Source of the DNA: PVC group bacterium
GTDB taxonomy: Bacteria > Verrucomicrobiota > Kiritimatiellia > CAIKKV01
DNA length: 64,000 nt
Reading direction: 5' to 3'
NCBI GenBank assembly: GCA_945898015.1
Contig: CAMDGM010000019.1
Location: 1-64,000 of the forward strand
Part shown: in pieces, positions 2,605-21,334 of the stretch
Position numbering within the stretch: the stretch's first letter is position 1
How the letters are laid out: every line of letters starts with the position of its first letter
Notes under the pieces: generated by a model
Seen by the model: only the letters and a program-made list of their open reading frames with translations
The model's database searches: none
Told to the model about the DNA's origin: nothing
Program-made: the position numbers and the translations under genes

Positions 2605-2619
2605 GACCCCTCCTCCCCG

Positions 2620-4661: not shown

Positions 4662-4690
4662 TTTTCAACAACCCTGAAAGGAGCATGCAT

Positions 4691-4960
4691 ATGTCTCAGA
4701 TTCCTGGTGCGGAAAAGAAAATGGTGGCGGGTATTCTCGGTATCCTGTTGGGCGCGCTTGGCATTCACAAGTTTTATCTGGGCTACAAGCAGGAAGGTAT
4801 CATCATGCTGCTGGTCTCGCTGATCGGCGGCGCCGTGACCTGCGGAGCCGGCGTCGGCGTGGTGAGCATAATCGGCCTGATTGAAGGCATTATGTACCTG
4901 ACAAAGACCGACGAAGACTTCGTGAACACGTACATTACGAACAAAAAGGGCTGGTTCTAA
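4691..4960 (+). CDS. TM2 domain membrane protein
   Basis: 89-residue protein with the TM2 signature. A first hydrophobic helix (about 12-28) ends in IHKFYLGYKQEGI, followed by a second glycine-rich helix (about 38-70). TM2 proteins are small inner-membrane proteins of unclear function. The start at 4691 is chosen over an in-frame ATG at 4685 because AAAGGAG at 4677-4683 is 7 bases from the former and only 1 from the latter. It is followed at once by a strong intrinsic terminator, then by a DUF2752 gene, a partner often found with TM2 proteins. Confidence 0.88.
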   Translation: MSQIPGAEKKMVAGILGILLGALGIHKFYLGYKQEGIIMLLVSLIGGAVTCGAGVGVVSIIGLIEGIMYLTKTDEDFVNTYITNKKGWF

Positions 4961-4975
4961 ACCCGGCTGACCCCA

Positions 4976-5007
4976 GGCCGCATCTTAACCGGATGCGGCC
5001 TTTTTTT
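4976..5007 (+). terminator. Rho-independent terminator after the TM2 gene
   Basis: A perfect 9-bp stem GGCCGCATC / GATGCGGCC (4976-4984 with 4992-5000), a 7-base loop and seven T residues (5001-5007). The ATG of the next gene begins at 5008, directly after the T run. Confidence 0.9.
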
Positions 5008-5406
5008 ATGCGCCCCACCCGTCCCGTCACCTTTTACCTACTCCTCGGCGCCGGCCCGGCCCTGTTCCTGCTCGGCACCGTGGCGCGCTGGCTTCCCGCC
5101 GGCGCGCGGCCGCTGTGCCTGACCCACACGCTGACCGGCATCCCCTGCCCCGGCTGCGGCTCGTTCCGCGCGCTTTGCCTGTTCGCGGCCGGCCGCTGGA
5201 CCGACGCTGGGCTCATGCAGCCGCTCATGACGCTGCTCTACACGGCCCTTGTCCTGCTCTCCGTGGCCACTGCGGTCGTTTGGCTGTTCCGCCTCCCGAC
5301 CCCGCCGTGGCGCGCTTTGACCCGCCGCGAACAGGCGCTACTTATCGCGCTCACAGCCCTCGCTGTGCTTCTGAATTGGACCTACCTGCTCCTCGTCCGG
5401 CGATGA
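5008..5406 (+). CDS. DUF2752 membrane protein
   Basis: 132 residues with the DUF2752 hallmark PCPGCGSFRA near 48-57 between hydrophobic segments: an N-terminal helix, one around 70-95 and a C-terminal one. The CPxCGxxR motif is typical of this small membrane family of unknown function, often found next to TM2 proteins. An in-frame ATG at 4993 lies inside the upstream terminator stem, so the ATG at 5008 is preferred. There is no clear ribosome-binding site because the terminator occupies that space. It converges with the DUF481 gene 6 bp away. Confidence 0.75.
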   Translation: MRPTRPVTFYLLLGAGPALFLLGTVARWLPAGARPLCLTHTLTGIPCPGCGSFRALCLFAAGRWTDAGLMQPLMTLLYTALVLLSVATAVVWLFRLPTPPWRALTRREQALLIALTALAVLLNWTYLLLVRR

Positions 5407-5412
5407 ACGCTC

Positions 5413-6159
5413 TTACAACTTGACGCTCACGCCCGCAATGATAGTCAGGTCGTTCTTCTCTTTGTCGTCCGCCGGCTGGCTGTCATACTTATCCTGCAAA
5501 ACAAGCCGAAGATTCAGCGTCGCGTTCAACGCAGCCTCGGCGCCCAGTTCAGACGTCACGAGATAATTGGAAAACCGCTCCGTATTCGGCATATATTCAA
5601 CCGACTCCCAGACCCGCGCCGTCGCGCTGAGCTTGTATTCGGCCCGCTCCACCACGCGCAGGGCCAGATAACTATCATCCTGGCCGTCCACCCGCTCAAA
5701 CACATAGCCGGGACCGGCCTCCACCGAAACCTGCGTGGCGTCGTTTTTCACCAGAAAGGCGCCCAGGCCGGGACCGACCGTGATGCGATAGTCGATGAGC
5801 GCGATGTTGTCATACAAATACGAGACATCCCCGGCCGCGTAGGTCATCGGAGACAGGGTCTTTTTGACGTTCACAAACGCCTTTGCGTTCTCGATGGTCT
5901 TATCCAGCGACCCGCCGTTGGCCGGCCGGCTCTCGCCATAATTGCCTTCCGCGCCCAGTCGAATGGCGCCCAACCCTTCCTTCGCCCCCTCGGTCAGCCA
6001 CGTGGCGTTTCCCTGCCGGGACTCGCTGTTGCCGTCCGTGATCGTCGCGCCCAGCGAAAACGTGTGCGTGAACGCCTTCTGTTCCGCGGCCAGACCCGCC
6101 TGCGCCGCCGCCAGCGCCGTCATGACCATCACGCCCAATCCGATGATTCCCTGCTTCAT
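5413..6159 (-). CDS. DUF481 outer-membrane beta-barrel protein
   Basis: 248 residues: an N-terminal signal peptide (Lys then a hydrophobic Ala/Leu-rich core, cleavage probably after GLAA) and a mature part of alternating beta strands matching DUF481 (YdiY-like salt-induced outer-membrane proteins). Features include SLGATITDGNSES near the start and a C-terminal strand LTIIAGVSVKL ending in a hydrophobic residue, as in barrel proteins. AAGGAG lies 7 bases upstream of the start. MscL lies 27 bp upstream on the same strand; the pairing would fit an osmotic or envelope-stress theme, but this is inference. Confidence 0.8.
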   Translation of the reverse strand: MKQGIIGLGVMVMTALAAAQAGLAAEQKAFTHTFSLGATITDGNSESRQGNATWLTEGAKEGLGAIRLGAEGNYGESRPANGGSLDKTIENAKAFVNVKKTLSPMTYAAGDVSYLYDNIALIDYRITVGPGLGAFLVKNDATQVSVEAGPGYVFERVDGQDDSYLALRVVERAEYKLSATARVWESVEYMPNTERFSNYLVTSELGAEAALNATLNLRLVLQDKYDSQPADDKEKNDLTIIAGVSVKL

Positions 6160-6186
6160 CCTGCGTCTCCTTTTTGCTGATGTCCC

Positions 6187-6573
6187 CTACTTCGCCGCGT
6201 CTTTCCCGGCCGCTTCCTTTTTCTCCGCCTTCTCCGCAATCCGGCGCAAGTTATTCATGACCTTGACCAGCATGAAAATCGCCCAGGCCACGATCAGGAA
6301 ATCAAGCACCGTCTGGATAAACTTGCCGTAGCTCAACAGGACCGCCGGCTTGACCACCGTCGTGCCGTCCGCTGCCAGCACCGCCGCTTGGAGCGTCACC
6401 GCCAGCGCCGAAAAATCCACCCCGCCGATCAGCACGCCGATCGGCGGCATGATGACATCCGTCACCAGCGACGACACGATCTTGCCGAACGCCGCGCCGA
6501 TGATAATACCGACCGCCATGTCCATCACATTACCCTTGACCGCAAACTCCCGAAATTCACTCGCCATGCTCAT
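6187..6573 (-). CDS. mscL: Large-conductance mechanosensitive channel MscL
   Basis: 128 residues, the usual MscL length. It has the amphipathic N-terminus ([18 protein letters not shown]), TM1 with [21 protein letters not shown] near 26-46, a short periplasmic loop, TM2 ([20 protein letters not shown]) and a charged Lys/Glu-rich C-terminal helix. It opens under membrane tension to release solutes during hypo-osmotic shock. AAGGAGG lies 5 bases from the start. The upstream 183 bp (6574-6756) separate it from a divergent hydrolase; no specific signal was recognised there. Confidence 0.97.
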
Positions 6574-6756
6574 GCTCGCCTCCTTATTTACTACATGTCC
6601 GGCGCCCTTGCCGCGTTCGTGGAGGTCTCAACACCGGTGATCCACGAATTTCGCGTAATCCTAGCATACCTGATTCTTTTGTCCACCTTGCCTTTCGCGC
6701 CGTTTCGCGCTACAACACGTACCAGTCACCCGCTCACCCCACGGAGCCGTTCCGCC

Positions 6757-7881
6757 ATGCCGCTTCAGCCCCAACCTCAAAAAAGCCGACAACACATCAC
6801 CGCCGCCTTCGTGGCCGACCTGTTCCGCCACACGCCGGAACTGGCCTATCCCCCCGGCCTGCGCCCGGAGGCCTTTACAACCTGGCAAGCAAGGGTCCGG
6901 CGCCGGCTGAAAAGCCTGCTCACCTTCCCCCGGGTGCCGTGCCAGCCCCCGCCCCGCCTTCTTCGCGAGGCGCCACGCGACGGCTACACCCTTCAATCCT
7001 GGGAATTATACCCCGAGCCCGGCTCCGCAGTCCCATTCCTCATGCTGGTCCCCGATGGCGTCTGCGCCGCCCGGCCCGCCCCGGCGGTCCTGTGCTGTCC
7101 CGGAACCGACCACCCCAAGGAAGGCCTGTGCGGGGAGCCGGTGCCCGATCCCTCTAAACCTGTTTTCCAGGACGCCCGCCAGGCCATGGCGCTCCAGATC
7201 GTCCGCGCCGGAATGATTGCCGTGGCCTTCGACAATCCCGGTACCGCCACCCTGTGTGACCCGAAATACCCGGACTGGAAACGGCAGGCCGGGCATCTGA
7301 TCTGGCTGGGCCGCTCTTACGAAGGCCTTTCGGTGTTCCAGAAACGGGCGGCCTTCCGCTGGCTCCGGACCCGCCCGGAAGTCGATTCCGCCCGGATCGC
7401 CGCCTGCGGCCACTCCCTGGGGGCCAAACCCGCGCTGCTGCTGGGCGTACTTGAACCCCGTTTGGCCGCCGTCGTATGGAATGATCACGCCGCCTCATGG
7501 CGGGAGCGGGAACTGGCCACCAACCTGGCCGGCGTGGCGCCCTGGCACTATATTCCAGGCTTGCTCCGTTGGTTCGACTACCCCGACCTCATGGCCGCCC
7601 TGGCGCCGCGGCCCCTGCTGATCACGGAAGGCGGCCGCCTGGACCACCACGCGCGCCTCCGCAAAGCCTATTCCACGCTGGGCGCAGCCGACCGGCTCAA
7701 GATTACCTTCATGCCGAACTTTGCGGACCCTAAAACCCGCACGCGCGCGGCGCTGCCGGAAGGCCTCGACGCCAAAAGCTATGCCCGCTATGCCAATTGT
7801 GACGGCGACCATTATTTCAAACCGGACATCGTCGTGCCGTGGCTGCGTTCCGTTTTGTTCAAAATCGCGCCGAAGGCTTGA
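6757..7881 (+). CDS. Alpha/beta hydrolase (acetyl-xylan esterase / dienelactone hydrolase-like)
   Basis: 374-residue alpha/beta hydrolase. The nucleophile elbow is GHSLGAKP with Ser220; His352 in DGDHYF is the probable catalytic His and the acid is probably the Asp of RLDHH. The region before the elbow (GTDHPKEGL... DNPGTATLCDP) resembles the large ABHD/acetyl-xylan-esterase-like hydrolases that PVC bacteria have in many copies. No signal peptide, so probably cytoplasmic. Start at 6757 is the first Met after a long stretch with non-coding character; its ribosome site (ACGGAG) is weak. Substrate unknown; an esterase acting on sugar or xenobiotic esters is likely. Confidence 0.75.
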   Translation: MPLQPQPQKSRQHITAAFVADLFRHTPELAYPPGLRPEAFTTWQARVRRRLKSLLTFPRVPCQPPPRLLREAPRDGYTLQSWELYPEPGSAVPFLMLVPDGVCAARPAPAVLCCPGTDHPKEGLCGEPVPDPSKPVFQDARQAMALQIVRAGMIAVAFDNPGTATLCDPKYPDWKRQAGHLIWLGRSYEGLSVFQKRAAFRWLRTRPEVDSARIAACGHSLGAKPALLLGVLEPRLAAVVWNDHAASWRERELATNLAGVAPWHYIPGLLRWFDYPDLMAALAPRPLLITEGGRLDHHARLRKAYSTLGAADRLKITFMPNFADPKTRTRAALPEGLDAKSYARYANCDGDHYFKPDIVVPWLRSVLFKIAPKA

Positions 7882-8003
7882 CTTCCGCCTCCGCCATGGT
7901 AAAGTTATTGCCGCTTTTCTTTGACTCGGCTTCGACTGGAAAGCCGGTAAAGAGGCATCCTTTCAGTTTAAAATTGGGAATCTAAAAAGAAAGAGGACGG
8001 GAT

Positions 8004-10736
8004 ATGGCCAAGATCGAAACTCGGAAATATGTTTACGCCTTCGGCAGCAGCAAGGCCGACGGCGATGCCTCCATGAAAAACCTGCTGGGCGGCAAGGGCG
8101 CCAACCTGGCCGAAATGTGCAAGCTCGGGCTTCCCGTGCCGGCGGGCTTCACCGTCACCACCGAATGTTGCGTCGACTTTTTCACCAACAAGATGAAATT
8201 TCCGGGCAACCTGAAGGATCAGGTCACCGCCGCCCTCGCCGGCACGGAAAAGGAAATGGGCATGACGTTCGGCGATCCCGAACGGCCCCTCCTGATCTCC
8301 TGCCGCTCCGGCGCCCGCATGTCCATGCCCGGCATGATGGAAACCGTGCTCAACATCGGCCTGTGCCCCGCCACCATTCCCGCGCTGATCAAGCGGACCG
8401 GCAACGGCCGGTTCGTCTATGACTCCTACCGCCGCCTGATCATGATGTACTCCGATGTCGTGATGGAGAAGGCCGAAGGCATCGAGCCCAAGGAAGACAT
8501 GGGCATCCGCAAGCAGCTCGACCGCCTGATGGACGAGATGAAGGTCCGCGAAAAGTGCAAGAGCGACGTGGACCTGACCGAGGCCAACCTGCGCGACCTG
8601 TGCGACCTGTTCAAGGCCCGCATCAAGGCCGTCTTCGGCAAGCCCTTCCCCGACAGCGCCATGGAGCAGCTCTGGGGCGGCATCGGCGCCGTGTTCAAGA
8701 GCTGGAACGGCAAGCGCGCCATCTCCTACCGCCGCATCGAAAACATCCCGGACATCTGGGGCACCGCGGTGACGGTTCAGGCCATGGTCTTCGGAAACAT
8801 GGGTGACACCTCCGCCACCGGCGTGGCCTTCACCCGGAATCCCGCCACCGGCGATCCCCGCTTCTTCGGCGAATGGCTCGTCAACGCCCAGGGCGAAGAC
8901 GTCGTGGCCGGCATCCGCACCCCGCATCCGATCAACGAAGCCATGAAGACCGAGGGCACCCAGCATCTGGAGTCGCTCGAGAAGGCGATGCCCTCGACCT
9001 ACAAGCAGCTCGATGCCATCCGCACCCGGCTCGAAAAGCATTACCGGGACATGCAGGATCTGGAGTTCACCATCCAGGAAGGCAAGCTCTACCTGCTCCA
9101 GACCCGGACCGGCAAGCGCACGGGCACAGCTGCCCTGAACATGGCCATGGACATGCTCGAGGAAGGCATGATCAGCCCCAAGGAAGCCGTCATGCGCGTC
9201 AAACCCGCGCAGCTGGATGAACTCCTTCACCCGATTCTCGACTTCCACGCCGAAAAGACGGCCACGCTCCTCGGCAAGGGACTTCCCGCCGGGCCGGGCG
9301 GCGCCGTCGGCCAGATCGTCTTCACCGCCGAAAAGGCCGTGGAGTGGGCCAAGGCCGGCAAGACCGTGCTCCTCGTCCGCGAGGAAACCAGCCCCGAGGA
9401 TGTTGAAGGCATGCGCGTGGCCCAGGGCATCCTGACCGCCCGCGGCGGCATGACCAGCCATGCGGCCCTCGTGGCCCGCGGCTGGGGCAAGTGCTGCATC
9501 GTCGGCGCCGGCGCCCTGCATGTGGACGCCGCCGGCCGCAAGTTGAAAGCGGCCGGCCTGACCCTCAAGGAAGGCGACTGGGCCAGCCTCAACGGCACCC
9601 GCGGCTGCGTCTACCTGGGCGCTGTCAAGCTCGTCGATGCGACTGAGAACCCCCGGTTCCAGCAGTTCATGGCCATCGTGGACGGATTCCGCAAGATGGG
9701 CGTCCGCGCCAACGCCGACACGCCCGAGGACGCCCGCATTGCCCGGCAATTCGGCGCCGAAGGCATCGGCCTCTTCCGCACGGAACACATGTTCTACGGC
9801 AAGGGCAGCGACGAGCCGCTCTTCCTGCTGCGCAAGATGATCCTCAGCAACACCGTCGAAGAGCGCCGCAAGGCCCTGTCCAAGCTCTTCCGGTTCGTCA
9901 AGAGCGACATCAAGGCCACGCTCGCGGTCATGGACGGAATGCCCGTCACCATCCGCCTGCTCGATCCGCCGCTGCACGAATTCGTGCCGACCGATCCGGC
10001 CAAGCAGAAGGAACTGGCCGACAGCCTGGGCATCACCGTCAAGGAGGTCCGTGAACGGGCCGACCAGCTCCACGAAACCAACCCCATGATGGGTCACCGC
10101 GGCGTACGCCTCGGCGTCACCTATCCCGAGGTGGCGGAGATGCAGTTCCGCGCGGTGTTCGAGGCGGCCGCCGAGCTGATCACCCAGAAGAAGACCTGCA
10201 AGCCCGAGATCATGATCCCGGTGACCTGCGACGTGGCGGAGCTCAAGAACCAGAAGGTCATCTGCGAGCGCGTCCGGCGCGAGGTCATGACCAAGTACAA
10301 CCTCAAGTCCCTGGACTACCTGTTCGGCTCCATGATCGAAATCCCGCGGGCCGCCCTGCTGGCCGATCGCATGGCTGCCGAATCGGACTTCTTCTCGTTC
10401 GGCACGAACGACTTGACCCAGATGACGTTCGGCTTCAGCCGCGACGACACGGACAAGTTCCTTCACGCCTACCTGGAGAAGAAGGTTCTCGCCTCCGATC
10501 CGTTCCAGACGCTCGACATCGACGGCGTGGGCCAGCTAGTGAAAATGGCGACCGAACGCGGTCGCTCCACCAAGAAGAACCTGAAGGTCGGCATCTGCGG
10601 CGAACAGGGCGGCGATGCGGCCTCCGTGGAATTCTGCTACCAGACCGGCCTGAACTATGTCAGTTGCAGCGCATTCCGGATCCCGCTGGCCCGCCTCGCG
10701 GCGGCGCAAGCGGCCCTGAAGGCGGCTAAGAAATAA
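8004..10736 (+). CDS. ppdK: Pyruvate, phosphate dikinase
   Basis: 910 residues, full length. The N-terminal nucleotide-binding domain starts with GGKGANLAEM, the swivelling phosphohistidine domain has GGMTSHAALVARG with catalytic His486, and the C-terminal PEP/pyruvate barrel has FGTNDLTQMTFGFSRDD and GICGEQGG with the catalytic Cys. It interconverts pyruvate + ATP + Pi with PEP + AMP + PPi. Beside PPi-type phosphofructokinases it suggests a PPi-linked reversible glycolysis. AGAGGA lies upstream of the ATG. apt starts 20 bp downstream, probably in one transcript. The 122 bp ahead show no recognised leader. Confidence 0.97.
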   Translation: MAKIETRKYVYAFGSSKADGDASMKNLLGGKGANLAEMCKLGLPVPAGFTVTTECCVDFFTNKMKFPGNLKDQVTAALAGTEKEMGMTFGDPERPLLISCRSGARMSMPGMMETVLNIGLCPATIPALIKRTGNGRFVYDSYRRLIMMYSDVVMEKAEGIEPKEDMGIRKQLDRLMDEMKVREKCKSDVDLTEANLRDLCDLFKARIKAVFGKPFPDSAMEQLWGGIGAVFKSWNGKRAISYRRIENIPDIWGTAVTVQAMVFGNMGDTSATGVAFTRNPATGDPRFFGEWLVNAQGEDVVAGIRTPHPINEAMKTEGTQHLESLEKAMPSTYKQLDAIRTRLEKHYRDMQDLEFTIQEGKLYLLQTRTGKRTGTAALNMAMDMLEEGMISPKEAVMRVKPAQLDELLHPILDFHAEKTATLLGKGLPAGPGGAVGQIVFTAEKAVEWAKAGKTVLLVREETSPEDVEGMRVAQGILTARGGMTSHAALVARGWGKCCIVGAGALHVDAAGRKLKAAGLTLKEGDWASLNGTRGCVYLGAVKLVDATENPRFQQFMAIVDGFRKMGVRANADTPEDARIARQFGAEGIGLFRTEHMFYGKGSDEPLFLLRKMILSNTVEERRKALSKLFRFVKSDIKATLAVMDGMPVTIRLLDPPLHEFVPTDPAKQKELADSLGITVKEVRERADQLHETNPMMGHRGVRLGVTYPEVAEMQFRAVFEAAAELITQKKTCKPEIMIPVTCDVAELKNQKVICERVRREVMTKYNLKSLDYLFGSMIEIPRAALLADRMAAESDFFSFGTNDLTQMTFGFSRDDTDKFLHAYLEKKVLASDPFQTLDIDGVGQLVKMATERGRSTKKNLKVGICGEQGGDAASVEFCYQTGLNYVSCSAFRIPLARLAAAQAALKAAKK

Positions 10737-10756
10737 ATTCCGGAAGGAGAGCCGGC

Positions 10757-11281
10757 ATGTCCTCGATAGAAGCCATTAAAAAAGCTGTTCGCGATGTGCC
10801 GGACTTCCCCAAGCCCGGAATCCTGTTCAAGGATATCACCCCGGTCCTCGGCGACCCGGCCCTGTTCCGGGCCGCCGTGGACATTTTCGTCTCCCGCCAC
10901 GCCAAGGCCGGCATCCAGAAGGTGGCCTGCATCGATGCGCGGGGGTTTCTGTTCGGGTCCGCCGTGGCGTATGCCCTGAAGGCAGGCCTGGTGCCCATTC
11001 GTAAAAAAGGCAAACTGCCTTACCAGACTCTCTCCCAGGCCTATGCCCTCGAATATGGCACCGCGGAAATCGCCATGCATATCGACGCTGTCAAGCCCGG
11101 CGAAAAGGTGCTGCTGATCGATGACCTGCTGGCCACCGGCGGCACGGCCCAGGCCGCGGCTATGCTCCTCGAAAAGGCCGGCGCCACGGTGGTCGAGATC
11201 GACTTCCTGATCGAGCTGGCGTTTCTCAAGGGCCGTGACAAACTGGCCCCCCGCCCCATATTCGCCGCCGTCGTTTATTAA
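10757..11281 (+). CDS. apt: Adenine phosphoribosyltransferase
   Basis: 174 residues, standard length. It has the N-terminal VRDVPDFPKPGILFKDITPVL signature and the PRPP-binding motif VLLIDDLLATGGTA near 117-130. It converts adenine + PRPP to AMP + PPi in purine salvage. It lies 20 bp after ppdK with GGAAGGAG as ribosome site. Its two products are co-substrates of PPDK in the glycolytic direction, a plausible reason for the pairing. Its stop TAA overlaps the stop of the convergent HD gene inside the palindrome TTAA (11278-11281). Confidence 0.95.
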   Translation: MSSIEAIKKAVRDVPDFPKPGILFKDITPVLGDPALFRAAVDIFVSRHAKAGIQKVACIDARGFLFGSAVAYALKAGLVPIRKKGKLPYQTLSQAYALEYGTAEIAMHIDAVKPGEKVLLIDDLLATGGTAQAAAMLLEKAGATVVEIDFLIELAFLKGRDKLAPRPIFAAVVY

Positions 11282-12471
11282 GCAGGTTTGTACATCTCAA
11301 AGTAATCGAGCGGCACGGAATCGGCGGTTTTCTCTTTCCGGGCACTCATGATGTCCTTGACCCCCAGGCGAAGGGCTGGCGAGTCGATGCCCGTCTCGAT
11401 CGATTTACTGGCTTCGATCAACGCGCTGAGCTGATCGCACCCCTTGATAAGCGCCCCGTCCACGGGCTCGAATTTGTCCTCATTATACCGGTCGGCCAGG
11501 TCGGACGCCTTCACGGTTCGGCGCGCCCCGTTCTCCCGGATCCGGTTCTCAAACGGCTTCTCGACGAAATATAGAACCTGCTCGTGCCACGCCTCGGGCA
11601 TCAGCGGGAGCAGGCTCTCCCGAACCAGGGATCCTTCTTCCTCTTCCACGAACTTTTCGAGCCCTTCGATCGACCGCTTGATCGGCGTGATGATGTCCCT
11701 CGTGAAGACCTCGGGCAGGTCGTGCATCAGCGCGACCAGGAAATTATTGCGGCGGCGGGTCGGACAAAAGCCCCGGTCATGCCCGAACAGATACATGAGG
11801 ATGGCCGTGAACAGGGAATGCCCCAGCACCGAAGTGCTCGGCATGCGCGGTGTCTGCGCCCAGCGCTGCTGGAAACGGAGCTGGCCGCACAGATCCACGA
11901 AGCCATAGGCTTTCTGCTTGAGGCTGATCTTCCGCACGCCGATCAGGTCGATATAATCTTCCAGTTGGTTCTCGATGTCCACCCGGGTCTTTTCGATGCC
12001 ATACAGGAAAGGTCCGCTATGATAGACCATGCGGAACTCCCATTGCGTGGCCAGGTAATGCGCGGCTTTCAGGATACGCCGCTCCAGGCAATCAGCCCGG
12101 TCCCCGGCCAGGTACGCGCCCAGCCGGGCATGAAGGTCGCCCATGGATTCGAGCTCCGCGGCCAGCTCCTTGAGCACATGGCGGTTGACCTTATCACCGT
12201 GGGTGTTCATGAGCCGGTGGAAGAACGGCGCCTTGAGATCCGTCAGCACCACGCGCGGGAGAAACTCGAAGATCAGCCCGTCAATCAGGAACGACCAGTC
12301 CAGGGGCGGGCTGCGATGGCGGTCCTCCTCGAACTTGGCGAGGAGGAATACGATAAAGGCCTTGTGGCCCTGCTTGTCCAGCTCGGTCAGCATCACGGGC
12401 CGCACGTGGTCGTTCCACCGCTGGATGGAGGCGGCCCCGAACAACCGGTCAATCAGCGCTTTCGAAATCAT
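11278..12471 (-). CDS. HD-domain phosphohydrolase
   Basis: 397 residues, cytoplasmic. The HD motif is visible as a His in VLGHSLF (218), then LMHDLPE with His250-Asp251, and a downstream Asp in KASDLADRYNED, matching YfbR-like/HD_3 nucleotide phosphohydrolases, but with a long N-terminal helical extension. Start at 12471 (MISKALIDRLFG) is used because the upstream in-frame residues overlap the M29 gene. It is the third gene of a thioesterase-peptidase-HD operon. A nucleotidase or phosphodiesterase activity is likely; the substrate is not predictable. Confidence 0.75.
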   Translation of the reverse strand: MISKALIDRLFGAASIQRWNDHVRPVMLTELDKQGHKAFIVFLLAKFEEDRHRSPPLDWSFLIDGLIFEFLPRVVLTDLKAPFFHRLMNTHGDKVNRHVLKELAAELESMGDLHARLGAYLAGDRADCLERRILKAAHYLATQWEFRMVYHSGPFLYGIEKTRVDIENQLEDYIDLIGVRKISLKQKAYGFVDLCGQLRFQQRWAQTPRMPSTSVLGHSLFTAILMYLFGHDRGFCPTRRRNNFLVALMHDLPEVFTRDIITPIKRSIEGLEKFVEEEEGSLVRESLLPLMPEAWHEQVLYFVEKPFENRIRENGARRTVKASDLADRYNEDKFEPVDGALIKGCDQLSALIEASKSIETGIDSPALRLGVKDIMSARKEKTADSVPLDYFEMYKPA

Positions 12472-12535
12472 TCCTGGCCTCGCATCGTTAGGGCGTTTGC
12501 GTTGTGCCCAGCATACCGCGCCGTCTCCGCCGGCG

Positions 12536-13618
12536 CTACACAAATCGGCCGTTCTCCTGGAACACGCGGCCATTCACGCTCATCCTGCCGCCTTGACGCA
12601 AATCGCGGATCAGGTCCCAGTGCAGGGACGAGCGATTGCGGCCGCCCGTTTCGGGATACGACTGTCCCAGCGCCAGATGGATCGTGCCGCCGATCTTCTC
12701 GTCGAAGAGAATGTTGCGGATGAACCGGTCGATCTTCGGATGCGTGCCGATGCCCAGCTCGCCCAGCCGTCGCGCGCCCGGATCGGCATCCAGCATCTTG
12801 AGCAGAAAATCCTGGTTCTTCTCCGCCGTCGCCTCCACCACCGCGCCTTTGCGGAACACGAGCCGCACGCCCGCCACTTCGCGGCCATGCACGCAGACCG
12901 GAAAGTCGAACCGGATATGCCCCTCGGCCGAATCCTCGACCGGCCCCGTGAATATCTCGCCGCTTGGCATGTTGCGCTTGCCGTCAGAGTTGATGAAGGT
13001 GCGGCCCTTGACGGAAAAGGCCAGGTCGGTGTCAGGCCCTTCGAGGCGGACCTGGTCCGCGCCGCGCAACTTGCGGATCAGCCGCTCCTGCATCCGGTGC
13101 AGCTCCGCCCACCGGCGCAGCGGATCCGGGTCGTCCGCGAACATCGCGCCAAACACGTAGTTCTCGAAATCGGAAAGGCTCATCTCCGCATCCTGGGCAT
13201 AGGCGGAAGTGGGAAACAAGGTGGTCACCCAGCGCTTGCGCATCAGGATCTTGCGCACGGGCTGCATGGCCTTGCCCAGGGCCGCAAACCGGGCGGGATC
13301 CGCGCCCGACAAGCCGCGGGTGTTGCCCTCGGATTGCACGCCAATGGTCGCGTCCATGCGCCGGGCGTAATCGAGCTGGTACGACGGCAGCGTGGTGAAC
13401 AGGTTCGGCGTCCCGGACTTGAAGAACTTTTCCTGGAGCCCGGGCGGACTCATGCGCAGGGCCGGGAACGCGCCCGTCCTGTAGAGCTCCTCGCAAACCG
13501 CTTCGAGCAACGGCTCGGCCAACGAGGTGCCGGAAACGCCGATCTGCTGCCCCTCGCGGGCCTCCACGCAGTAGTGAACCAGAATACGGGCCAACGATTG
13601 AATACGCAGATCCATCAT
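12536..13618 (-). CDS. M29-family aminopeptidase
   Basis: About 360 residues of the thermophilic-type metallo-aminopeptidase family M29 (AmpS/PepS/aminopeptidase T). Recognisable are NMPSGEIFTGP with the metal-ligand Glu, ELGIGTHP, and a C-terminal IHLALGQSYPETGG...SSLHWDLI segment carrying the His and Asp ligands. It cleaves N-terminal residues from peptides in the cytoplasm. The start ATG at 13616-13618 overlaps the stop of the thioesterase gene as ATGA, so translation is probably coupled. A GGGGGGAA site precedes it. Confidence 0.88.
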   Translation of the reverse strand: MMDLRIQSLARILVHYCVEAREGQQIGVSGTSLAEPLLEAVCEELYRTGAFPALRMSPPGLQEKFFKSGTPNLFTTLPSYQLDYARRMDATIGVQSEGNTRGLSGADPARFAALGKAMQPVRKILMRKRWVTTLFPTSAYAQDAEMSLSDFENYVFGAMFADDPDPLRRWAELHRMQERLIRKLRGADQVRLEGPDTDLAFSVKGRTFINSDGKRNMPSGEIFTGPVEDSAEGHIRFDFPVCVHGREVAGVRLVFRKGAVVEATAEKNQDFLLKMLDADPGARRLGELGIGTHPKIDRFIRNILFDEKIGGTIHLALGQSYPETGGRNRSSLHWDLIRDLRQGGRMSVNGRVFQENGRFV

Positions 13619-14125: not shown

Positions 14126-14743
14126 TCACGGCGCCGGCGCGACCGGTTCAAACCCCGGACTGGGCAGCGTCAACACAGACGTGTTGGCCGCGTCCGTGCC
14201 CATCTGCCCGCACACATCAAAGGCAGCATTGGCGGCCGCCGTCACCGCCGCGTCAATCAGCATGCCCAGCAAGTCCCCGCCGCCGTTGCCGGACTGCTGC
14301 TCCCGATGCCAGCCCGACTGCCAGATCAGCGCCTCGGTCGGGCCTTCCACCAACCAGCATGAGCCCGACACCACCGAAGACCCCTGCACCACATGATACT
14401 TCGTGGCCCACCTGGTAATCCGCGTATACAACAGGTACTCCGCCTTCAATTCCGCACTCAGCCGGCTGGGCTTCAGGTCCGGCAGCTCCCGCACGGTGAG
14501 GCCGCTGGCGGAGGCAAAGGTGACCACCCGGTCCGCCTCCACCACGTCAAATCCGCGCTTCCTCAACTGCTCCTCGCAGGCCTTATTGAAAATAATGGAG
14601 GCCGCCGGCTCGTCGGTCGCATTCGCACAGGGGATCACCGCCACCCGCACCGGCTCCCGTTGGAAATAATAATGCTCCAGGGCGTTGGAGGACACGCACC
14701 CCGCGCCGGCCAACCCCAACAGAATAACAAAAAGGGCTTTCAT
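14126..14743 (-). CDS. DUF799 (GNA1162-like) lipoprotein
   Basis: 205 residues with a lipobox signal (LLGLAGAGC, lipidated Cys16). The mature part matches DUF799/GNA1162: VRVAVIPCANATDEPAAS, a GFDVVEADRVV segment, LKAEYLLYTRITRWATKYHVV, and a WLVEG...LIW segment. Such lipoproteins occur in operons with CsgG-like proteins and may form an envelope complex. It is the third gene here; its ATG overlaps the stop of the middle gene as ATGA. It is probably attached to the periplasmic face of a membrane. Function unknown. Confidence 0.72.
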   Translation of the reverse strand: MKALFVILLGLAGAGCVSSNALEHYYFQREPVRVAVIPCANATDEPAASIIFNKACEEQLRKRGFDVVEADRVVTFASASGLTVRELPDLKPSRLSAELKAEYLLYTRITRWATKYHVVQGSSVVSGSCWLVEGPTEALIWQSGWHREQQSGNGGGDLLGMLIDAAVTAAANAAFDVCGQMGTDAANTSVLTLPSPGFEPVAPAP

Positions 14744-15309
14744 TGTAGCGCCGCCTTGAACCGGGGGTCCGCCAGGATTTGCCGCAACATCATATGAACC
14801 ACCTGCTGCTCATCCACCGCCAGATTGCCCCACACCGAGGAAAGCGCCCGCTTGGCAAACAGCACCTCGCCCTTGGGGGAAATCAACTCGGCATCCATGA
14901 TCCAAATCGCCGGAAACAACTGGCGCAGCTCCGAACCCAGATACACCTTGTTCTCACCAGCCACCGCCTGCTTCTGGACCGCTTCGCGCCACTCGCGAAA
15001 ACCCGGACCAAACGCGAACGTCGCCCGGACCGGCTTCACCCCCGACGCCCGCAGCTCCGCTTCCAGCGCCTCTGTGACATACGTCCACGGCGTGAAGGTC
15101 GGAGAGAGCTGCTTCCGGTTTTCCAGCGAAAGCCCGTCGATGACCGGACACACCACTACCGTTTTTCCAGCCGCCGGCAACTCAATGCGGCCAAACCGGT
15201 CCTGCGCCGCCTTATACGGGGCCGGCGCATAAGTCGGACTGGCACACCCGGCCATCAGGGCGGCCAGTCCGAACACGACAAGCGCGGCTCTGAACGGAAC
15301 GCGCGCCAT
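14740..15309 (-). CDS. Hypothetical lipoprotein in CsgG operon
   Basis: 189 residues with a lipobox (GLAALMAGC, Cys22). The mature part has KTVVVCPVIDGLSLENR and FREWREAVQKQ segments and a hydrophobic IWIMDAELISPKGEVLF core, reminiscent of TolB-N-like or ABC-associated lipoprotein folds but not assignable to a family by eye. It occupies the place of the DUF4810 gene in the CsgG-DUF4810-DUF799 arrangement known elsewhere, but is longer. It starts 2 bp after the CsgG stop and overlaps the next gene by 4 bp. Confidence 0.65.
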   Translation of the reverse strand: MARVPFRAALVVFGLAALMAGCASPTYAPAPYKAAQDRFGRIELPAAGKTVVVCPVIDGLSLENRKQLSPTFTPWTYVTEALEAELRASGVKPVRATFAFGPGFREWREAVQKQAVAGENKVYLGSELRQLFPAIWIMDAELISPKGEVLFAKRALSSVWGNLAVDEQQVVHMMLRQILADPRFKAALQ

Positions 15310-15311
15310 AA

Positions 15312-15983
15312 TCAGCGCTGATCCAGGCTCTGGTCGATGAGCTTATCCACAAACTTGCTGATGGCGGCCCGCAACGAATTGGCGGCCATGGTCTCGTCAT
15401 AGCCCGCCGAAGCGCCAAAGCCCAGCACCTGGCCGGCGGCCACTTCCACCACGCCCCGCCCGCTTTCGGACGCGATAATGCGGCCCGTGGCCACATCCAC
15501 CAGACGCACATCCACCACGGCTTCGGCTTCCTGGATTACCTTGGCGCCAAAGATGCAGGACTGCATCCGGCGCGTCCGGTAGCCAAAGCTGGAGACGTTG
15601 CCGATCACCACCATCTGCACGCCCGCTTTTTTCCCGAATTCCGCCGCGGCGTTGGCGTCTTTCGTCACGCCGGCGGCCAGCTGCTGCTCGTCCATGATCT
15701 GGTTCATCCGCGCGCGTTCGAACAAGGCGAACTGCCCCGACCGGTCGAGATAGGTGGTCAGCACCGATGCGGCGCTCCGCCCGATGCGGCCATGGCCATA
15801 ATCGGTTTGATCCTCGAAGTCGAGCACGGCCACCCGCTTGCGCTCCGCCACTGGCAGCGGTTGCCGGGCGCTCTTCCATCCGGGATTAACCGCTTCCTCT
15901 TCCTTGCGAATTTCCGAGGAGTAACAGCCCGCCAGCGCCAGCATTCCCGCCACTGCCATCATGCTCACAAGTTGCCGTTTCAT
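15312..15983 (-). CDS. CsgG-family lipoprotein
   Basis: 223 residues from the ATG at 15983, which has AAGGAGG upstream. The signal ends in a lipobox (MLALAGC). The mature part has the CsgG/HfaB core: KRVAVLDFEDQT, a GRSAASVLTTYL helix, FALFERARMNQIMDEQQLAAG, VVIGNVSSFGYRTRR, and VDVRLVDVATGRIIASESGRG. CsgG proteins form outer-membrane secretion pores or act as envelope-complex lipoproteins. Here it leads a tight three-lipoprotein operon. No curli genes are nearby, so amyloid export is not implied. Confidence 0.82.
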   Translation of the reverse strand: MKRQLVSMMAVAGMLALAGCYSSEIRKEEEAVNPGWKSARQPLPVAERKRVAVLDFEDQTDYGHGRIGRSAASVLTTYLDRSGQFALFERARMNQIMDEQQLAAGVTKDANAAAEFGKKAGVQMVVIGNVSSFGYRTRRMQSCIFGAKVIQEAEAVVDVRLVDVATGRIIASESGRGVVEVAAGQVLGFGASAGYDETMAANSLRAAISKFVDKLIDQSLDQR

Positions 15984-16050
15984 CCTGCCTCCTTTTCTAT
16001 GACCACTCAATCCAGTTTGTTTATACATTTTTCCCCACCTGCAAAACACC

Positions 16051-16548
16051 CTAAAATGGCGCCGTGGCCACATTGACGCGGACCCCCTTCAGCAAGGACT
16101 CCAGCGCCTCCGGCTTCATCCGGGCCAGCACCCCGCGCCGGCCGGCATTGATCCAGATCTCCGGCAAATCAAAAATCGTCGCCTCCACATACACCGGCAG
16201 CTCCTTGCGCGTGCCGAACGGGCTGGTGCCGCCGATCATGTAGCCGGTGTGGCGAGTCGCCGTTTCCTGAGTACACGGCCCAATGTGTTTAACCCCCAGG
16301 GTTCGCGCCAATTGCTTGGTGGAAATCACGCGATCCCCGTGCATCAGGCAGATCAGCGGCGCCTTGGCGTCCGTTTCCATGACAATCGTCTTGATCACGG
16401 CATGCTCGGGCGCGCCCAATTGGGCGGCGGCGTTTCCCGTGCCGCCATGCTCCGCATACGTGTAAGACATCAGGTCAAACGCCACGCCCTGCTCCCGCAA
16501 CATCCGGATGGCCGGGGTCACCGGAATATCGGCTTCATCACTGTTCAT
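16051..16548 (-). CDS. ybaK: Cys-tRNA(Pro)/Cys-tRNA(Cys) deacylase YbaK
   Basis: 165 residues, the usual length. The YbaK/EbsC motifs are VTPAIRMLREQGVAF, AVIKTIVME with the catalytic Lys, RVISTKQLARTLGVKH, and HTGYMIGGTSPFGTRK. It trans-edits mischarged Cys-tRNA(Pro). It lies upstream of the CsgG operon on the same strand, separated by 67 bp, and the short sequence ahead of it is shared with the divergent dciA gene. Identity is firm; regulation is not apparent. Confidence 0.93.
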   Translation of the reverse strand: MNSDEADIPVTPAIRMLREQGVAFDLMSYTYAEHGGTGNAAAQLGAPEHAVIKTIVMETDAKAPLICLMHGDRVISTKQLARTLGVKHIGPCTQETATRHTGYMIGGTSPFGTRKELPVYVEATIFDLPEIWINAGRRGVLARMKPEALESLLKGVRVNVATAPF

Positions 16549-16647: not shown

Positions 16648-16968
16648 ATGGCGAAAAAACGATTCATCGCGGAAGCCGCGCCGGTCAGCGATATTCTCCA
16701 CACTCTGGTTCCCCGCCTGGCCCTGCTCCGCCACGACTGGGTCGACGAACTGGCCAAATCCTGGCCCGAGGTGGCGGGCAAGGCCGTGGCCGCCCACACT
16801 CAGCCCGCCAAGCTCGAGGGGCATTCGCTCGTGGTTCTGGTGGATCAACACGTCTGGATGCAGGAGCTGCAACGGTCCGGCCGAAAGCCGCTCCTGGCCA
16901 ATATTCAGAAAAAATTCGGCGCCACCAAAGTGAACGACATCCTGTTCCGTCTGGATCCGGGCCGATAA
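16648..16968 (+). CDS. DciA-like DUF721 protein
   Basis: 106 residues matching DUF721: DWVDELAKSWPEVAGKAVAAHTQPAKLEGHSLVVLVDQHVWMQEL then a basic C-terminal VNDILFRLDPG. DciA-type proteins load the replicative helicase in bacteria lacking DnaC/DnaI, consistent with the nearby dnaA-dnaN. Divergent from ybaK across 99 bp. It is shorter than many DciA proteins because it lacks extra terminal domains, but the KH-like core is complete. Confidence 0.78.
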   Translation: MAKKRFIAEAAPVSDILHTLVPRLALLRHDWVDELAKSWPEVAGKAVAAHTQPAKLEGHSLVVLVDQHVWMQELQRSGRKPLLANIQKKFGATKVNDILFRLDPGR

Positions 16969-16991: not shown

Positions 16992-19589
16992 ATGAAACGG
17001 CTACGTCTGTCCCGTGTATTGACCGCGCTCGCCCTTCTCGCCCTCGCCTCCGGCCTTTCCGGCTGCGCCTCCACCACCCTCAAGGGCACCCCCTTCTATA
17101 CCGGGGAATACGAAAAACGGGTCGGCCCCGCCGAAGACCGCGTGAACCTCTGGCCCCTGCTCTACTACCGCAACCCCGCCCTCTCCGTGCTCTGGCCGAT
17201 CTTCGAACACGCGGACGACCATGCCGCCGTGCGCCCCCTGTACTCCGTCTATCGCCTCCAGGAGGCCCGCAAGGAGTACAACGTCCTCTGGCCCCTCGCC
17301 CAGTTCGACCGCTTCCACGAAAATAACCGGGTCTTCCCCGTCTACTGGGGCAACGATTACGCCGTCGTCTTCCCACTCTACTGGCATTACGACGATCCTT
17401 TTGCCGAGCACGGCCGGGGGCTCAACACGCTCTTTCCGCTCTGGATCTACGCCAATTCCGGAGACGACGATTACAGCCTCCACCTCCTGTGGCCGCTCTT
17501 CAACAGCAAGCACGACAGCAACACACAAGGTTGGCGGCTCTGGCCGCTCTATGCCGACTGGAAAACGGGCGGCGACTCCTATAACGGCTGGTACGCCTGG
17601 CCCTTGGGCCACTATTGGGGCCGGGGCGATTACCATTCCCGCTTGCTGCTCCCCCTGTTTTACCAGGCAAGCGAACCGGCTTCCTCCACCTTCATTTCCC
17701 TGCTCGGGGGCCGGCATAACGCCCCGGACCAAACCTGGTCCTATCTGTTTCCGCTCTATTTTTACGGCCGCGAACCCGATCGCTCCACCCGCTTCTACAC
17801 CCTCCTCGGCGGCCGGCGTTCCCGGGCCAATGGCGACAGCGCCTGGTATGCCCTGCCGGCACTGGCCTGGGGATCTCAAACCAGCGCCACACGCGACACC
17901 TGGATCGGCGGCCCCCTGTATCACTCCTCGTCCCGGCCCGATTCGGCGTCCAGCCATCTCTTCCCGTTTTACTACTCGTCCCGCGACGCGACCTCCTCCC
18001 TGTTTCTCTCCCTGCCCTGGTCCCGCCGCAGCGATTCCGCCGGCGACACCTGGTCGCTCGCCCTGCCGTTCTGGTTCCATCATGAAGACGCGGAAGGCGA
18101 TTTCTCGGTCACGCCCGCCTACCTGTGGGGCCACGATGTTCGCTCCGGCCAATCCTGGTCCGCCATTCCCCCTGTTTACTACCATCGCGACGACGAACGG
18201 GGCGACACGTTCCTCTCGCCGTTGTTCAGCTCCTGGCGTTCCGCCGCCGGCGCCCGCAACACGCTCATTCCACCCGCCTTGACGTATCTGCGCCGCGATG
18301 ATGATCGCTCCGATCTCTGGGCCGCGGCCGGACTGGGCCATTGGAGCTGGGGCGAACATCCGGGCTCCTCCCACCTGCTACCGGTGTATTACCGGGATGC
18401 CGCTGCCGGCACCACGCTATCGCCCCTCTATTGTGCCTGGTCCAACAGCACCCGCCGGACCGAAACCACCCTGGTTCCGCCGCTCCTGTCCTGGCTGGAA
18501 AAAGAACCCGGCAACCGGACCCTCTATGCGTTGCTCGGCGTGGGCAAATTCAACTGGGGTCCGGAGGCCGAAGAGTCCCACCTGTTTCCTTTTTATTACC
18601 GCGACCCGGTCAGCCAATCCTTCCTCTCCCTCCCCTACGCCACCTGGCAGGATGGCGACCGGACCGCTACCGGCGTGCCCCTCCTGCTCTCCTGGTTCTC
18701 GCGGAACCGGACTGAACGCGACCTACGCCTGCTACTGGGCCTGTTCGGACAGTCGTGGTCTACCGCTCCCAAGTCCTCCTCCAGCGGCTGGCTATTCCCG
18801 CTCTACGCCTATGGTGACGACTACTGGCTCACGCTGCTGGCGGGGCATAGCCAAGATTCGTCCACCACCTGGACCTATTTCCCCACGCCGCTGGCCGGCT
18901 GGATTTCCGGCGACACGCATGGCTCCTGGCTCTTGCCGCTCTACTGGTACCGGCATTACGAAGCCACCGGCCAACGCGATCTCTGGTATCTCCCCTGGGG
19001 TTACTATCACGCCGACGCCCGCCGCTCGGAATCGGGCCTATTCCCTCTTTATGGATATGAAAACAACGGGCCGCCCGTCGATTCCGATGACCCGGCCGAA
19101 CTGGGAAAAGTCCGAGGCCGCGCCTGGCACCTGCTTTACCTGGCCGGGTATTCTAACCGGCGGGCGCCGATCTGGTCCTATACCGCCGCCTCACGCTCGA
19201 ACACGTGCCAGGGCGTCACCTGGACGGCCAAAAACCGCTTCTTCCCGCTCTGGCGCTATGAGCGGAACCTGCGGACCGATACCGACCAGCTGGAAAAGGA
19301 ATTCACCCTGCTCTTTTTCCTGCAGGATTACTGGCGCAAGGCGGACCTGGGTCCGGAGCCGAAAACCGATTATGCGCGCACGCGAATCCTGTGGCGCTTC
19401 CTGCATTACGAGCGCGACCACGACACCGTGTCCCTGGATCTATTCCCCGCCATCACCTATGACCGGGATGGCGCGGCCAAGCGGAAAGTGTCTTTTCTCT
19501 GGCGCGGGTTCCGATATGAGCGAAAGGACGGACAAAAGTCCGTCGACCTGCTGTTCCTGCCCGTCTGGCGCACGCGCTGGGCGGACTAA
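16992..19589 (+). CDS. Large repeat-built lipoprotein of unknown function
   Basis: 865 residues with a lipobox (LASGLSGC, Cys25). The mature protein is a near-continuous series of at least fifteen degenerate repeats of about 40-50 residues, each centred on a hydrophobic-Pro-aromatic motif such as LWPLLYYR, VFPLYWHY, LFPLWIY, LFPFYYS, LLPVYYR, LFPLYAY and LLPLYWY, followed by polar linkers rich in Asp, Arg and Ser. The composition (Trp, Tyr, Leu, Pro) suggests an all-beta repeat, perhaps a multi-strand envelope scaffold or barrel-like surface protein. It lies 23 bp after dciA. I do not recognise a named family. Confidence 0.75.
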   Translation: MKRLRLSRVLTALALLALASGLSGCASTTLKGTPFYTGEYEKRVGPAEDRVNLWPLLYYRNPALSVLWPIFEHADDHAAVRPLYSVYRLQEARKEYNVLWPLAQFDRFHENNRVFPVYWGNDYAVVFPLYWHYDDPFAEHGRGLNTLFPLWIYANSGDDDYSLHLLWPLFNSKHDSNTQGWRLWPLYADWKTGGDSYNGWYAWPLGHYWGRGDYHSRLLLPLFYQASEPASSTFISLLGGRHNAPDQTWSYLFPLYFYGREPDRSTRFYTLLGGRRSRANGDSAWYALPALAWGSQTSATRDTWIGGPLYHSSSRPDSASSHLFPFYYSSRDATSSLFLSLPWSRRSDSAGDTWSLALPFWFHHEDAEGDFSVTPAYLWGHDVRSGQSWSAIPPVYYHRDDERGDTFLSPLFSSWRSAAGARNTLIPPALTYLRRDDDRSDLWAAAGLGHWSWGEHPGSSHLLPVYYRDAAAGTTLSPLYCAWSNSTRRTETTLVPPLLSWLEKEPGNRTLYALLGVGKFNWGPEAEESHLFPFYYRDPVSQSFLSLPYATWQDGDRTATGVPLLLSWFSRNRTERDLRLLLGLFGQSWSTAPKSSSSGWLFPLYAYGDDYWLTLLAGHSQDSSTTWTYFPTPLAGWISGDTHGSWLLPLYWYRHYEATGQRDLWYLPWGYYHADARRSESGLFPLYGYENNGPPVDSDDPAELGKVRGRAWHLLYLAGYSNRRAPIWSYTAASRSNTCQGVTWTAKNRFFPLWRYERNLRTDTDQLEKEFTLLFFLQDYWRKADLGPEPKTDYARTRILWRFLHYERDHDTVSLDLFPAITYDRDGAAKRKVSFLWRGFRYERKDGQKSVDLLFLPVWRTRWAD

Positions 19590-19658: not shown

Positions 19659-20459
19659 TCAGCTCTCCAGCATAGACCGCCGATGCTTCAATGCCGGCAC
19701 GCGGGCGCGGACGCGCTCCACCTCCGCCTTATCGAGCGTGGCGCGAAGCGTCGTCTCCTCCGGCCCGCCCTCGGCCAGCACATCCCCCCAGGGGCCCACG
19801 ATCAGGCTATGCCCATAACTGGCCACGCCCGTCGCCGAATTTATGCCGCACTGATTGGGCGCCACCACGAAGCACTGATTTTCAATAGCGCGCGCCCGGA
19901 CCAGCGTTTCCCAATGGCACTTGCCGGTATTCTGCGTGAAGTTGGAGGGAATCAATAAAAGCGAAGCTCCCCGCTTGGCGTAAACCCGGTACAGCTCGGG
20001 AAAGCGCACGTCATAGCAGATGGACAGCCCGCAGGACCAGCCCTCGATCCCGGCCATCACCGGGTGATCGCCCGCCTCATACACATCCCGTTCCCGCACG
20101 ATCACGCCGCTCTCCAGCACCGCCTCGAACAGGTGCATTTTCCGGTACGTGGCCGCCACCTTTCCGGAGCGGTCCACCAGCACCGTGGTATTGAAAATCC
20201 GTTCGCCGGCGCGCTCAAGAATGCTCCCGCCCAACACCCAGGCCTTGTGCCGCCGGGCGGTGTCGGCCAGCCACGTCACCTGCCGCCCGTTCAGCGGCTC
20301 TGCGGCCTCACGCAAATCGCCGTCATTCCCGCGGATGGCAAACACCTCGGGAAGCACAATCAAATCGGCAGGCTCTTCATTCATCAGCCGGGCGTCCAGC
20401 GCCGCCAGATTCGCCGCCACAACCCGCCCCGCCGCATTCTGGATAAGAGTTACTTGCAT
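19659..20459 (-). CDS. Carbon-nitrogen hydrolase (nitrilase family)
   Basis: 266 residues of the nitrilase superfamily with the full triad: Glu38 in LPEVFA, Lys107 in YRKMHLF and Cys148 in SICYDVRFPELYR. The sequence around the Cys resembles Nit1/Nit2-type amidases acting on deaminated glutathione or omega-amino acids. Start at 20459 (MQVTLIQNAAG) is chosen by family alignment, with GGGGAG upstream. Divergent from the tatD operon, with overlapping promoter space. Cytoplasmic; the exact amide substrate is unknown. Confidence 0.87.
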   Translation of the reverse strand: MQVTLIQNAAGRVVAANLAALDARLMNEEPADLIVLPEVFAIRGNDGDLREAAEPLNGRQVTWLADTARRHKAWVLGGSILERAGERIFNTTVLVDRSGKVAATYRKMHLFEAVLESGVIVRERDVYEAGDHPVMAGIEGWSCGLSICYDVRFPELYRVYAKRGASLLLIPSNFTQNTGKCHWETLVRARAIENQCFVVAPNQCGINSATGVASYGHSLIVGPWGDVLAEGGPEETTLRATLDKAEVERVRARVPALKHRRSMLES

Positions 20460-20557
20460 ACCGGCAAAATACTCCCCGCCTTCTTTTTCCGCAATCTCTT
20501 TTGCCCGTGCTGCATTTACGCTTTTCCTCGCTTGATATTCGGATGTATACTCCTGAC

Positions 20558-21334
20558 ATGCGCCTCTACGACACCCATTGCCATCTTCAGGATGAGCGGC
20601 TCGAACCGGACCTTGCCGGCGTGATGGCCCGGGCCGAAGCGGCCGGCGTGTGCCGGTTCCGTTGTTGCGCCACCACGGAGGCGGACTGGCCGGCCGTTGC
20701 GCACCTGGCGATCCACTTTCCCACCATCCGGCCGGCCTACGGCCTCCACCCCTGGCATCTGGCAACGCGCACCCCCGAATGGAAAACCCTGCTGCATGCC
20801 CGGCTCGTCGCCGAACCGCTCGCCATGGTTGGCGAAATCGGGCTCGACCACGCCATCGATTCCCCCGGCCGCGACGAACAGGAAGAGGTCCTTCGTGACC
20901 AACTGACACTGGCCGCAGAACTCCGCCGGCCGGTCTCCCTCCATTGCCGCCGGGCCTGGGGACACCTTTTCACCATCCTCCGCAGCCTCTCCCGGTTGCC
21001 GCCCGCCCTTCTTTTCCACGCCTATTCCGGAGATGCCAGCATTATCCGCCCTCTGGCTGAACTGGGCGGCTGGTTTTCCTTCTGCGGCTCCCTGACCCGC
21101 GAGGGCAACCGCCGCGGCCGCGCCGCCGCCGCCCTTGTGCCCGCGGACCGGCTCCTGCTCGAAACAGACGCCCCCGATCTGGCGCCACGCCAGGCCCCGC
21201 CCAGCACCCCCAACGAGCCCGCGTATCTGCCCCACACGCTCGCCGATCTGGCCGCCTGCCGGAACCAGACGATAGAAGAAACGGCCGAACTGACCTGGCA
21301 AAACGCCTGCCGTGTCTTCGGGGAAGAGCCATGA
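20558..21334 (+). CDS. TatD-family metal-dependent hydrolase
   Basis: 258 residues. The N-terminal YDTHCHLQD supplies the HxH metal ligands, GEIGLDHA the Glu, SLHCRRAW and LFHAYSG two further His, and LLLETDAPDL the Asp ligand, as in TatD DNases/deoxyribonucleases. The start at 20558 places the HxH motif at residues 6-8 as in the family. It leads a TatD-TcdA-DJ-1 operon in which each gene overlaps the next by four bases (ATGA), so translation is probably coupled. Probable roles are DNA repair or RNA/D-aminoacyl-tRNA quality control. Confidence 0.88.
   Translation: MRLYDTHCHLQDERLEPDLAGVMARAEAAGVCRFRCCATTEADWPAVAHLAIHFPTIRPAYGLHPWHLATRTPEWKTLLHARLVAEPLAMVGEIGLDHAIDSPGRDEQEEVLRDQLTLAAELRRPVSLHCRRAWGHLFTILRSLSRLPPALLFHAYSGDASIIRPLAELGGWFSFCGSLTREGNRRGRAAAALVPADRLLLETDAPDLAPRQAPPSTPNEPAYLPHTLADLAACRNQTIEETAELTWQNACRVFGEEP

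Follow-up and report, generated by a model that had tools for sequence, protein, structure and literature searches.

The window, by which we mean the whole 64,000-nucleotide stretch of DNA from a PVC group bacterium analysed here, carries a forward-strand open reading frame at 16,992–19,589 that starts with ATG and encodes 865 residues. Its signal peptide closes with the lipobox LSGC (residues 22–25), which assigns lipidation to Cys25, a residue invariant across the 32-member family alignment A5; a lipobox is common to nearly all full-length family members. The protein thus combines a signal peptide and lipobox with an invariant cysteine, as bacterial lipoproteins do, and the 865-residue lipoprotein described in the first-pass annotation stands. 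The residue following the cysteine is Ala, whereas Asp at this +2 position is the inner-membrane retention signal of E. coli lipoprotein sorting. By the E. coli rule, Ala would be compatible with an outer-membrane destination; we know of no lipoprotein sorting rule for PVC bacteria.

The gene is located between dciA and a convergent nitrilase gene, the latter outside the feature (Table 1). dciA and the lipoprotein gene are possibly co-transcribed, and a functional linkage between the two is putative at most. On the reverse strand, three genes cluster at 14,126–16,073, encoding a CsgG-family lipoprotein, a 189-aa protein with no match and a GNA1162-like lipoprotein; because the CsgG and GNA1162-like genes are on the other strand and do not recur near relatives, we did not take them as partners.

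Table 1. Features of the repeat-lipoprotein gene and its neighbours (positions in the window; aa, residues of the lipoprotein)
Feature	Position	Strand	Basis
GNA1162-like lipoprotein, neighbour	14126-14743	-	Pfam
CsgG-family lipoprotein, neighbour	15312-16073	-	Pfam
DciA (PF05258), neighbour, 23 bp upstream of lipoprotein gene	16648..16968	+	Pfam; sequence
Lipoprotein signal peptide, aa 1-24, N-terminus MKRLRLSRVLTALALLALASGLSGC	16992..17063	+	Translation; lipobox in nearly all full-length homologs
Cys25, lipidation site, +2 residue Ala	17064..17066	+	Invariant in A5
Conserved N-terminal cap, aa 25-150: ..KGTPFYTGE..EDRVNLWPLLYYR.PALSVLWPI...D.HAAVRPLYSVY...	17064..17441	+	Alignments A1-A3, many invariant columns
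Variable repeat core, aa 151-749, ~17-aa bent beta-strands, xxhhPhYYx	17442..19238	+	Motif statistics; predicted strands
69-aa four-strand unit, copy 1 (aa 442-510)	18315..18521	+	Best internal self-match, spacing 69
69-aa four-strand unit, copy 2 (aa 511-579)	18522..18728	+	Best internal self-match, spacing 69
Conserved C-terminal cap, aa 750-865: ILWRFLHYERD...LDLFPAITYDRD..KRKVSFLWRGFRYER...VDLLFLPVWR	19239..19586	+	(Nearly) invariant columns in A1, A2, A4
Carbon-nitrogen hydrolase (nitrilase), neighbour, convergent, outside feature	19659..20909	-	Pfam

The mature protein contains 22 strict hydrophobic-Pro-hydrophobic motifs, whereas 2000 composition-preserving shuffles gave a mean of 0.75 and never more than 5; the first estimate of at least fifteen repeats was an undercount. 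That the repeats run along nearly all of the mature chain and are regularly spaced, as also proposed at first, agrees with AlphaFold2 strands almost throughout and with hydrophobic autocorrelation peaks at 17–19, 33–36 and 69 residues (0.19; maximum of 0.15 among 500 shuffles). The actual repeat is a bent, ~17-residue strand, two of which make 34–36 and four 69 residues, and self-alignment recovers two successive four-strand units as its best match. Among 928 motifs from 59 non-redundant relatives, the unit consensus is approximately S-W-L-F-P-L-Y-Y-Y, with a polar D/R/G turn after it. Hydrophobic fractions at consecutive motif positions are 0.89, 0.97, (Pro), 0.88, 0.89 and 0.58; the central strand positions are therefore 58–97% hydrophobic, Pro excepted, with no alternation.

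Family cores contain recent tandem duplications of 27, 33, 56, 59–60, 67–72 and 85 aa. Because the 27- and 33-aa units hold two motifs each, these duplications would fit inserted hairpins, that is, strand pairs added to an open-ended meander. Whole repeat units have recently been duplicated in frame and in tandem in three relatives, with DNA identities of 95% (L087, nucleotides 840–1355 of the gene), 93% (L070) and 87% (L100), which suggests that rod length changes over short time scales. At 2551–8256 of another contig (L130), labelled Planctomycetota but perhaps mis-binned, two adjoining repeat-lipoprotein copies of 1225 and 650 aa carry near-identical 59–60-aa internal repeats.

The core is flanked by two conserved caps. 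Members from the class have both in common, with KGTPFYTGE..DRVNLWP..SVLWP..AVRPLYS in the N-terminal cap and SFLWRxFRYE...LDLLFIPxxR in the C-terminal one, and more distant members possess shorter versions of the two; full-length proteins range from 398 to more than 1200 aa, the core being the variable part. Searching genome contigs with the single window protein returned no match, but a profile of the N-terminal region did find relatives in other PVC genomes. Whole-genome searches located them in 11 of 58 near genomes, in 55 of 289 genomes of the phylum and in 58 of 115 genomes of one taxonomic family; none appeared in the plasmids and viral contigs searched. The 34 named contigs with relatives come mostly from MAGs labelled Kiritimatiellota or Lentisphaerota, together with the cultured Pontiella sulfatireligans F21, and some of the other labels (Paceibacterota, Akkermansia, Planctomycetota) may be mis-binned or misnamed. 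Together these proteins make up a large family, so far without a name, of Kiritimatiellota and Lentisphaerota, and its core grows by tandem duplication. The family is unstudied: literature searches on the repeat, on Kiritimatiellota lipoproteins and on LA_1737 of Leptospira retrieved nothing relevant.

The protein had been thought to fit no known family. Scans of the window protein against Pfam (only a chance Melittin match, 0.12) and NCBIfam, as well as PDB sequence searches with the protein and with profiles, gave no credible match, and neither Pfam nor NCBIfam offered a strong profile match to a known family of defined function. The claim needs one qualification. A partial match to NCBIfam NF047486 (LA_1737_Cterm, Leptospira) occurs at E ≤ 0.1 in seven of 32 family members, the best at E 4.3e-9 over model positions 21–150 of 158 and inside the repeat core, although its 36.5 bits are below the curated cut-off of 60; the window protein itself has no match to this model and does not reach the 60-bit level of that family. 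Since some members' repeats resemble the C-terminal domain of LA_1737, the repeat is not wholly unknown.

AlphaFold2 predicts an all-beta meander for both the window protein (mean pLDDT 64, pTM 0.39) and a 567-aa relative (mean pLDDT 74, pTM 0.48), with long strands that break near Pro. Foldseek found no global match among solved structures for either of these low- to moderate-confidence models, and the "new repeat fold" of the first-pass annotation is upheld to that extent. IFT/WD40 propellers, teneurin, apoB, LptD and beta-galactosidase came up as global matches but were discarded because of query TM values of ≤0.16 and rmsd of ~20 Å or more. Local matches were to open antiparallel sheets: the TCP10 G-box (target TM up to 0.55), OspA, the apoB beta-belt and MORN repeat proteins. 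OspA, the G-box and MORN proteins, all single-layer antiparallel sheets, resemble the models in their repeated antiparallel strands and open-ended sheet (local Foldseek probability up to 1.0) but differ in showing query-normalised TM of ≤0.20, short of a global match, and no sequence similarity. Their strand faces are more polar, whereas the strands of the window family are aromatic-aliphatic.

An all-beta prediction with many strands, and LptD among the top Foldseek matches of the 567-aa relative's model, could also indicate a lipid-anchored beta-barrel of the outer membrane. Against this, the strands lack the in/out alternation of a barrel, five neighbouring positions being all mostly hydrophobic; the spread of chain lengths and the tandem duplications are unsuited to a closed barrel; and the LptD matches have query TM of ≤0.15 with rmsd of ~20 Å or more. 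We regard a barrel as highly improbable.

To guard against ascertainment bias, gene context was counted over 193 genomes of the class, all of which were searched for the family N-terminus, Aas and DUF2339. They contain 41 family loci in 37 genomes. Clustering of the relatives' neighbouring genes had identified a ~1140-aa fused LplT-Aas protein (MFS + acyltransferase + AMP-binding) as the chief recurrent same-strand partner, followed by DUF2339, alpha/beta hydrolases, DUF2157 and GDYXXLXY. Aas is located within 5 kb of 8 of the 41 loci, in seven taxonomic families, against 0.12 expected (Poisson ~1e-12), and DUF2339 within 8 kb of five, four of them on the same strand, against 0.16 expected (~8e-7), both probabilities ignoring relatedness and contig breaks. 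In all eight linked loci Aas is upstream on the same strand, separated from the matched N-terminal region by 62–172 bp in six and by ~2 kb in two. The other 33 loci show no Aas within 5 kb, many contigs being short.

Individual operons connect these partners to Arc3. Arc3A is DUF2339, and Arc3B homologs are identified by PF13163 (DUF3999) (PMC8926400). In one relative (L238), Aas, the lipoprotein, DUF2339 and DUF3999 (44 bits; cut-off 30) follow one another, tightly packed; in a second (L237), an alpha/beta hydrolase is interposed between lipoprotein and DUF2339, and the DUF3999 match scores 29 bits, just under that cut-off; in a third, outside the class (L087), the order is lipoprotein, DUF2339 and DUF3999 (37.4 bits). 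All three therefore display the adjacent DUF2339 and DUF3999 genes that characterise Arc3. On a further contig (L082, 1–8106), a DUF2339 gene has a family gene on either side, and after these comes an Aas-like gene shorter than full length. The N-terminal tree places two relatives (L029 and L100) closest to the window copy, and both have the order lipoprotein, DUF2157, GDYXXLXY, the GDYXXLXY protein of L100 being assigned by similarity to that of L029.

Arc3A and Arc3B prevent lysophospholipid accumulation under attack by a phospholipase effector, and in many bacteria aas is located next to arc3 genes (PMC8926400); Arc3A and Aas also confer protection from lipase effectors (PMC12663445). Relatives are encoded in one operon with the same components, DUF2339, DUF3999 and Aas, as the Arc3 and LplT-Aas system of Pseudomonas aeruginosa (PMC8926400), but the repeat lipoprotein is not among the two published Arc3 proteins, and neither the window protein nor the A1 members match PF13163. 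Relative to Arc3 it would be an additional, clade-specific component. Two loci (L234, and L236 in Pontiella) hold the Aas-Arc3 cluster with no repeat lipoprotein, for which reason the lipoprotein looks like an accessory rather than an essential component of the operon. At 2192–12801 in one of them (L236, Pontiella sulfatireligans), Aas, an alpha/beta hydrolase-like protein, DUF2339, DUF2157 and GDYXXLXY form one same-strand cluster, again lacking the lipoprotein; their co-occurrence there ties DUF2157 and GDYXXLXY to the lysophospholipid-repair neighbourhood.

A second association comes from a sister subfamily (A6), homologous to the family over 410 columns from the signal peptide on (profile-profile probability 99.5%, E 2.8e-23). 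In two loci (L034 and L090), the sister gene is directly upstream, on the same strand, of MlaE, MlaF (ABC ATPase) and MlaD/MCE genes. The MlaE proteins match PDB sequences at 1e-34 and 1e-31 and the MCE/MlaD protein of L034 at 5e-8, while the ATPases are assigned by sequence inspection and clustering only. A third sister gene (L033) adjoins, on its upstream side, an MlaE-like gene, assigned by clustering with the MlaE of the other two. The sister proteins of these three loci are candidate outer-membrane or periplasmic partners of PVC Mla systems. Adjoining MlaE, MlaF and MlaD genes, and in several cases encoding lipoproteins, the sister genes recall the Mla system, which comprises the outer-membrane lipoprotein MlaA and MlaFEDB. 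The fold of MlaA is helical. The window family differs in being far longer and a repeat beta protein, and Pfam scans of the window protein and family detected no MlaA domain.

The first-pass annotation had envisaged a possible surface scaffold. A lipid-anchored beta-rod serving as scaffold, adhesin or envelope spacer with no part in lipid handling would suit the anchor, the long repetitive rod-like prediction, lengths of under 400 to over 1200 aa reached by tandem duplication, the neutral neighbourhood of the window copy and the local similarity to OspA, a single-layer-sheet surface lipoprotein. It would leave unexpected the recurrent same-strand linkage to Aas, DUF2339/DUF3999 and DUF2157/GDYXXLXY and that of the sister group to MlaEFD; the conserved neighbours of the relatives point instead to phospholipid transport and repair, and nothing places the protein on the cell surface. 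We consider a purely structural role unlikely. Because relatives recur in phospholipid transport and repair operons, the family probably tends the outer membrane.

Given the lipid anchor and the genes in both Aas/Arc3 and Mla operons, the best reading is an outer-membrane partner in phospholipid handling. We give about even credence to the view that the family consists of outer-membrane lipoproteins serving phospholipid homeostasis together with transport and repair systems, the role being taken from family context. The strands of the protein, kinked at Pro and rich in aromatic residues, would form a long antiparallel beta-meander held between a lipid-anchored N-terminal cap and a C-terminal cap. 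One set of members would work with the LplT-Aas enzyme of lysophospholipid import and re-acylation and with Arc3A/Arc3B (DUF2339/DUF3999), and the sister set with the MlaE-MlaF-MlaD phospholipid ABC transporter. At the outer membrane, the rod may take up or hold (lyso)phospholipids on its hydrophobic strand faces and may then present them to its inner-membrane partner. The hydrophobicity of the central strand positions counts for lipid handling, although both faces look hydrophobic, which argues against a simple amphipathic groove; the modest confidence of the predicted folds counts against a lipid role, as do the majority of loci without nearby Aas, the Aas-Arc3 clusters that lack the lipoprotein and the setting of the window copy.

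The same partners might be served by a bridge-like conduit, in which the Pro-kinked meander forms a periplasm-spanning gutter along which lipids slide between the outer membrane and Aas or Mla, in the manner of AsmA/TamB-type proteins. The operon partners transport lipids at the inner membrane, weak Foldseek matches include the apoB beta-belt and LptD, and by general beta-sheet geometry ~48 strands of 17 aa would give a rod of ~20 nm, comparable to the periplasm. Such a bridge sits poorly with the roughly threefold spread of member length and with strands hydrophobic on both faces near Pro; Pfam scans of the window protein and A1 members gave no AsmA/TamB match, and the models are too weak to show a groove. 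A bridge accordingly seems improbable to us, somewhat more so than a structural role. Phospholipid handling at the outer membrane also admits a bolder version, which we put forward tentatively and think rather doubtful: lipid-anchored, extensible aromatic beta-rods of PVC bacteria could be the outer-membrane arm of two separate inner-membrane phospholipid systems, Aas/Arc3 for lysophospholipid repair and Mla for transport, a new lipid conduit or sink tuned in length by strand-pair duplication, and the missing third component of Arc3.

The window copy itself lies outside any lipid operon and has no adjacent Arc3 genes. In its genome (~90% complete), we detected no DUF2339, no full-length MFS-Aas at E 1e-60 (only partial Aas-like proteins) and no DUF3999, the last in a search whose control was uninformative. 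For these reasons the role is less certain for the window copy than for the family. The genome does carry a DUF2157-GDYXXLXY gene pair on another contig, matching the pair located after the lipoprotein gene in the nearest relatives. The tree of the N-terminal cap, in which context labels were hand-made, some entries are duplicates and row L156 is mislabelled, has an unresolved backbone and does not decide on orthology between the window copy and those linked to operons. That the window copy keeps the family role is a more guarded inference than the role of the family.

The mechanism of Arc3 against lysophospholipid build-up was stated as unknown in 2022 (PMC8926400), and lipid passage across the periplasm of PVC bacteria has, to our knowledge, been little studied. 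The family, with genes in Aas/Arc3 as well as Mla operons, offers a candidate for the outer-membrane partner. It also links the uncharacterised DUF2157 and GDYXXLXY proteins to the same gene neighbourhood, and the naming of many hypothetical proteins in Kiritimatiellota and Lentisphaerota would become possible.
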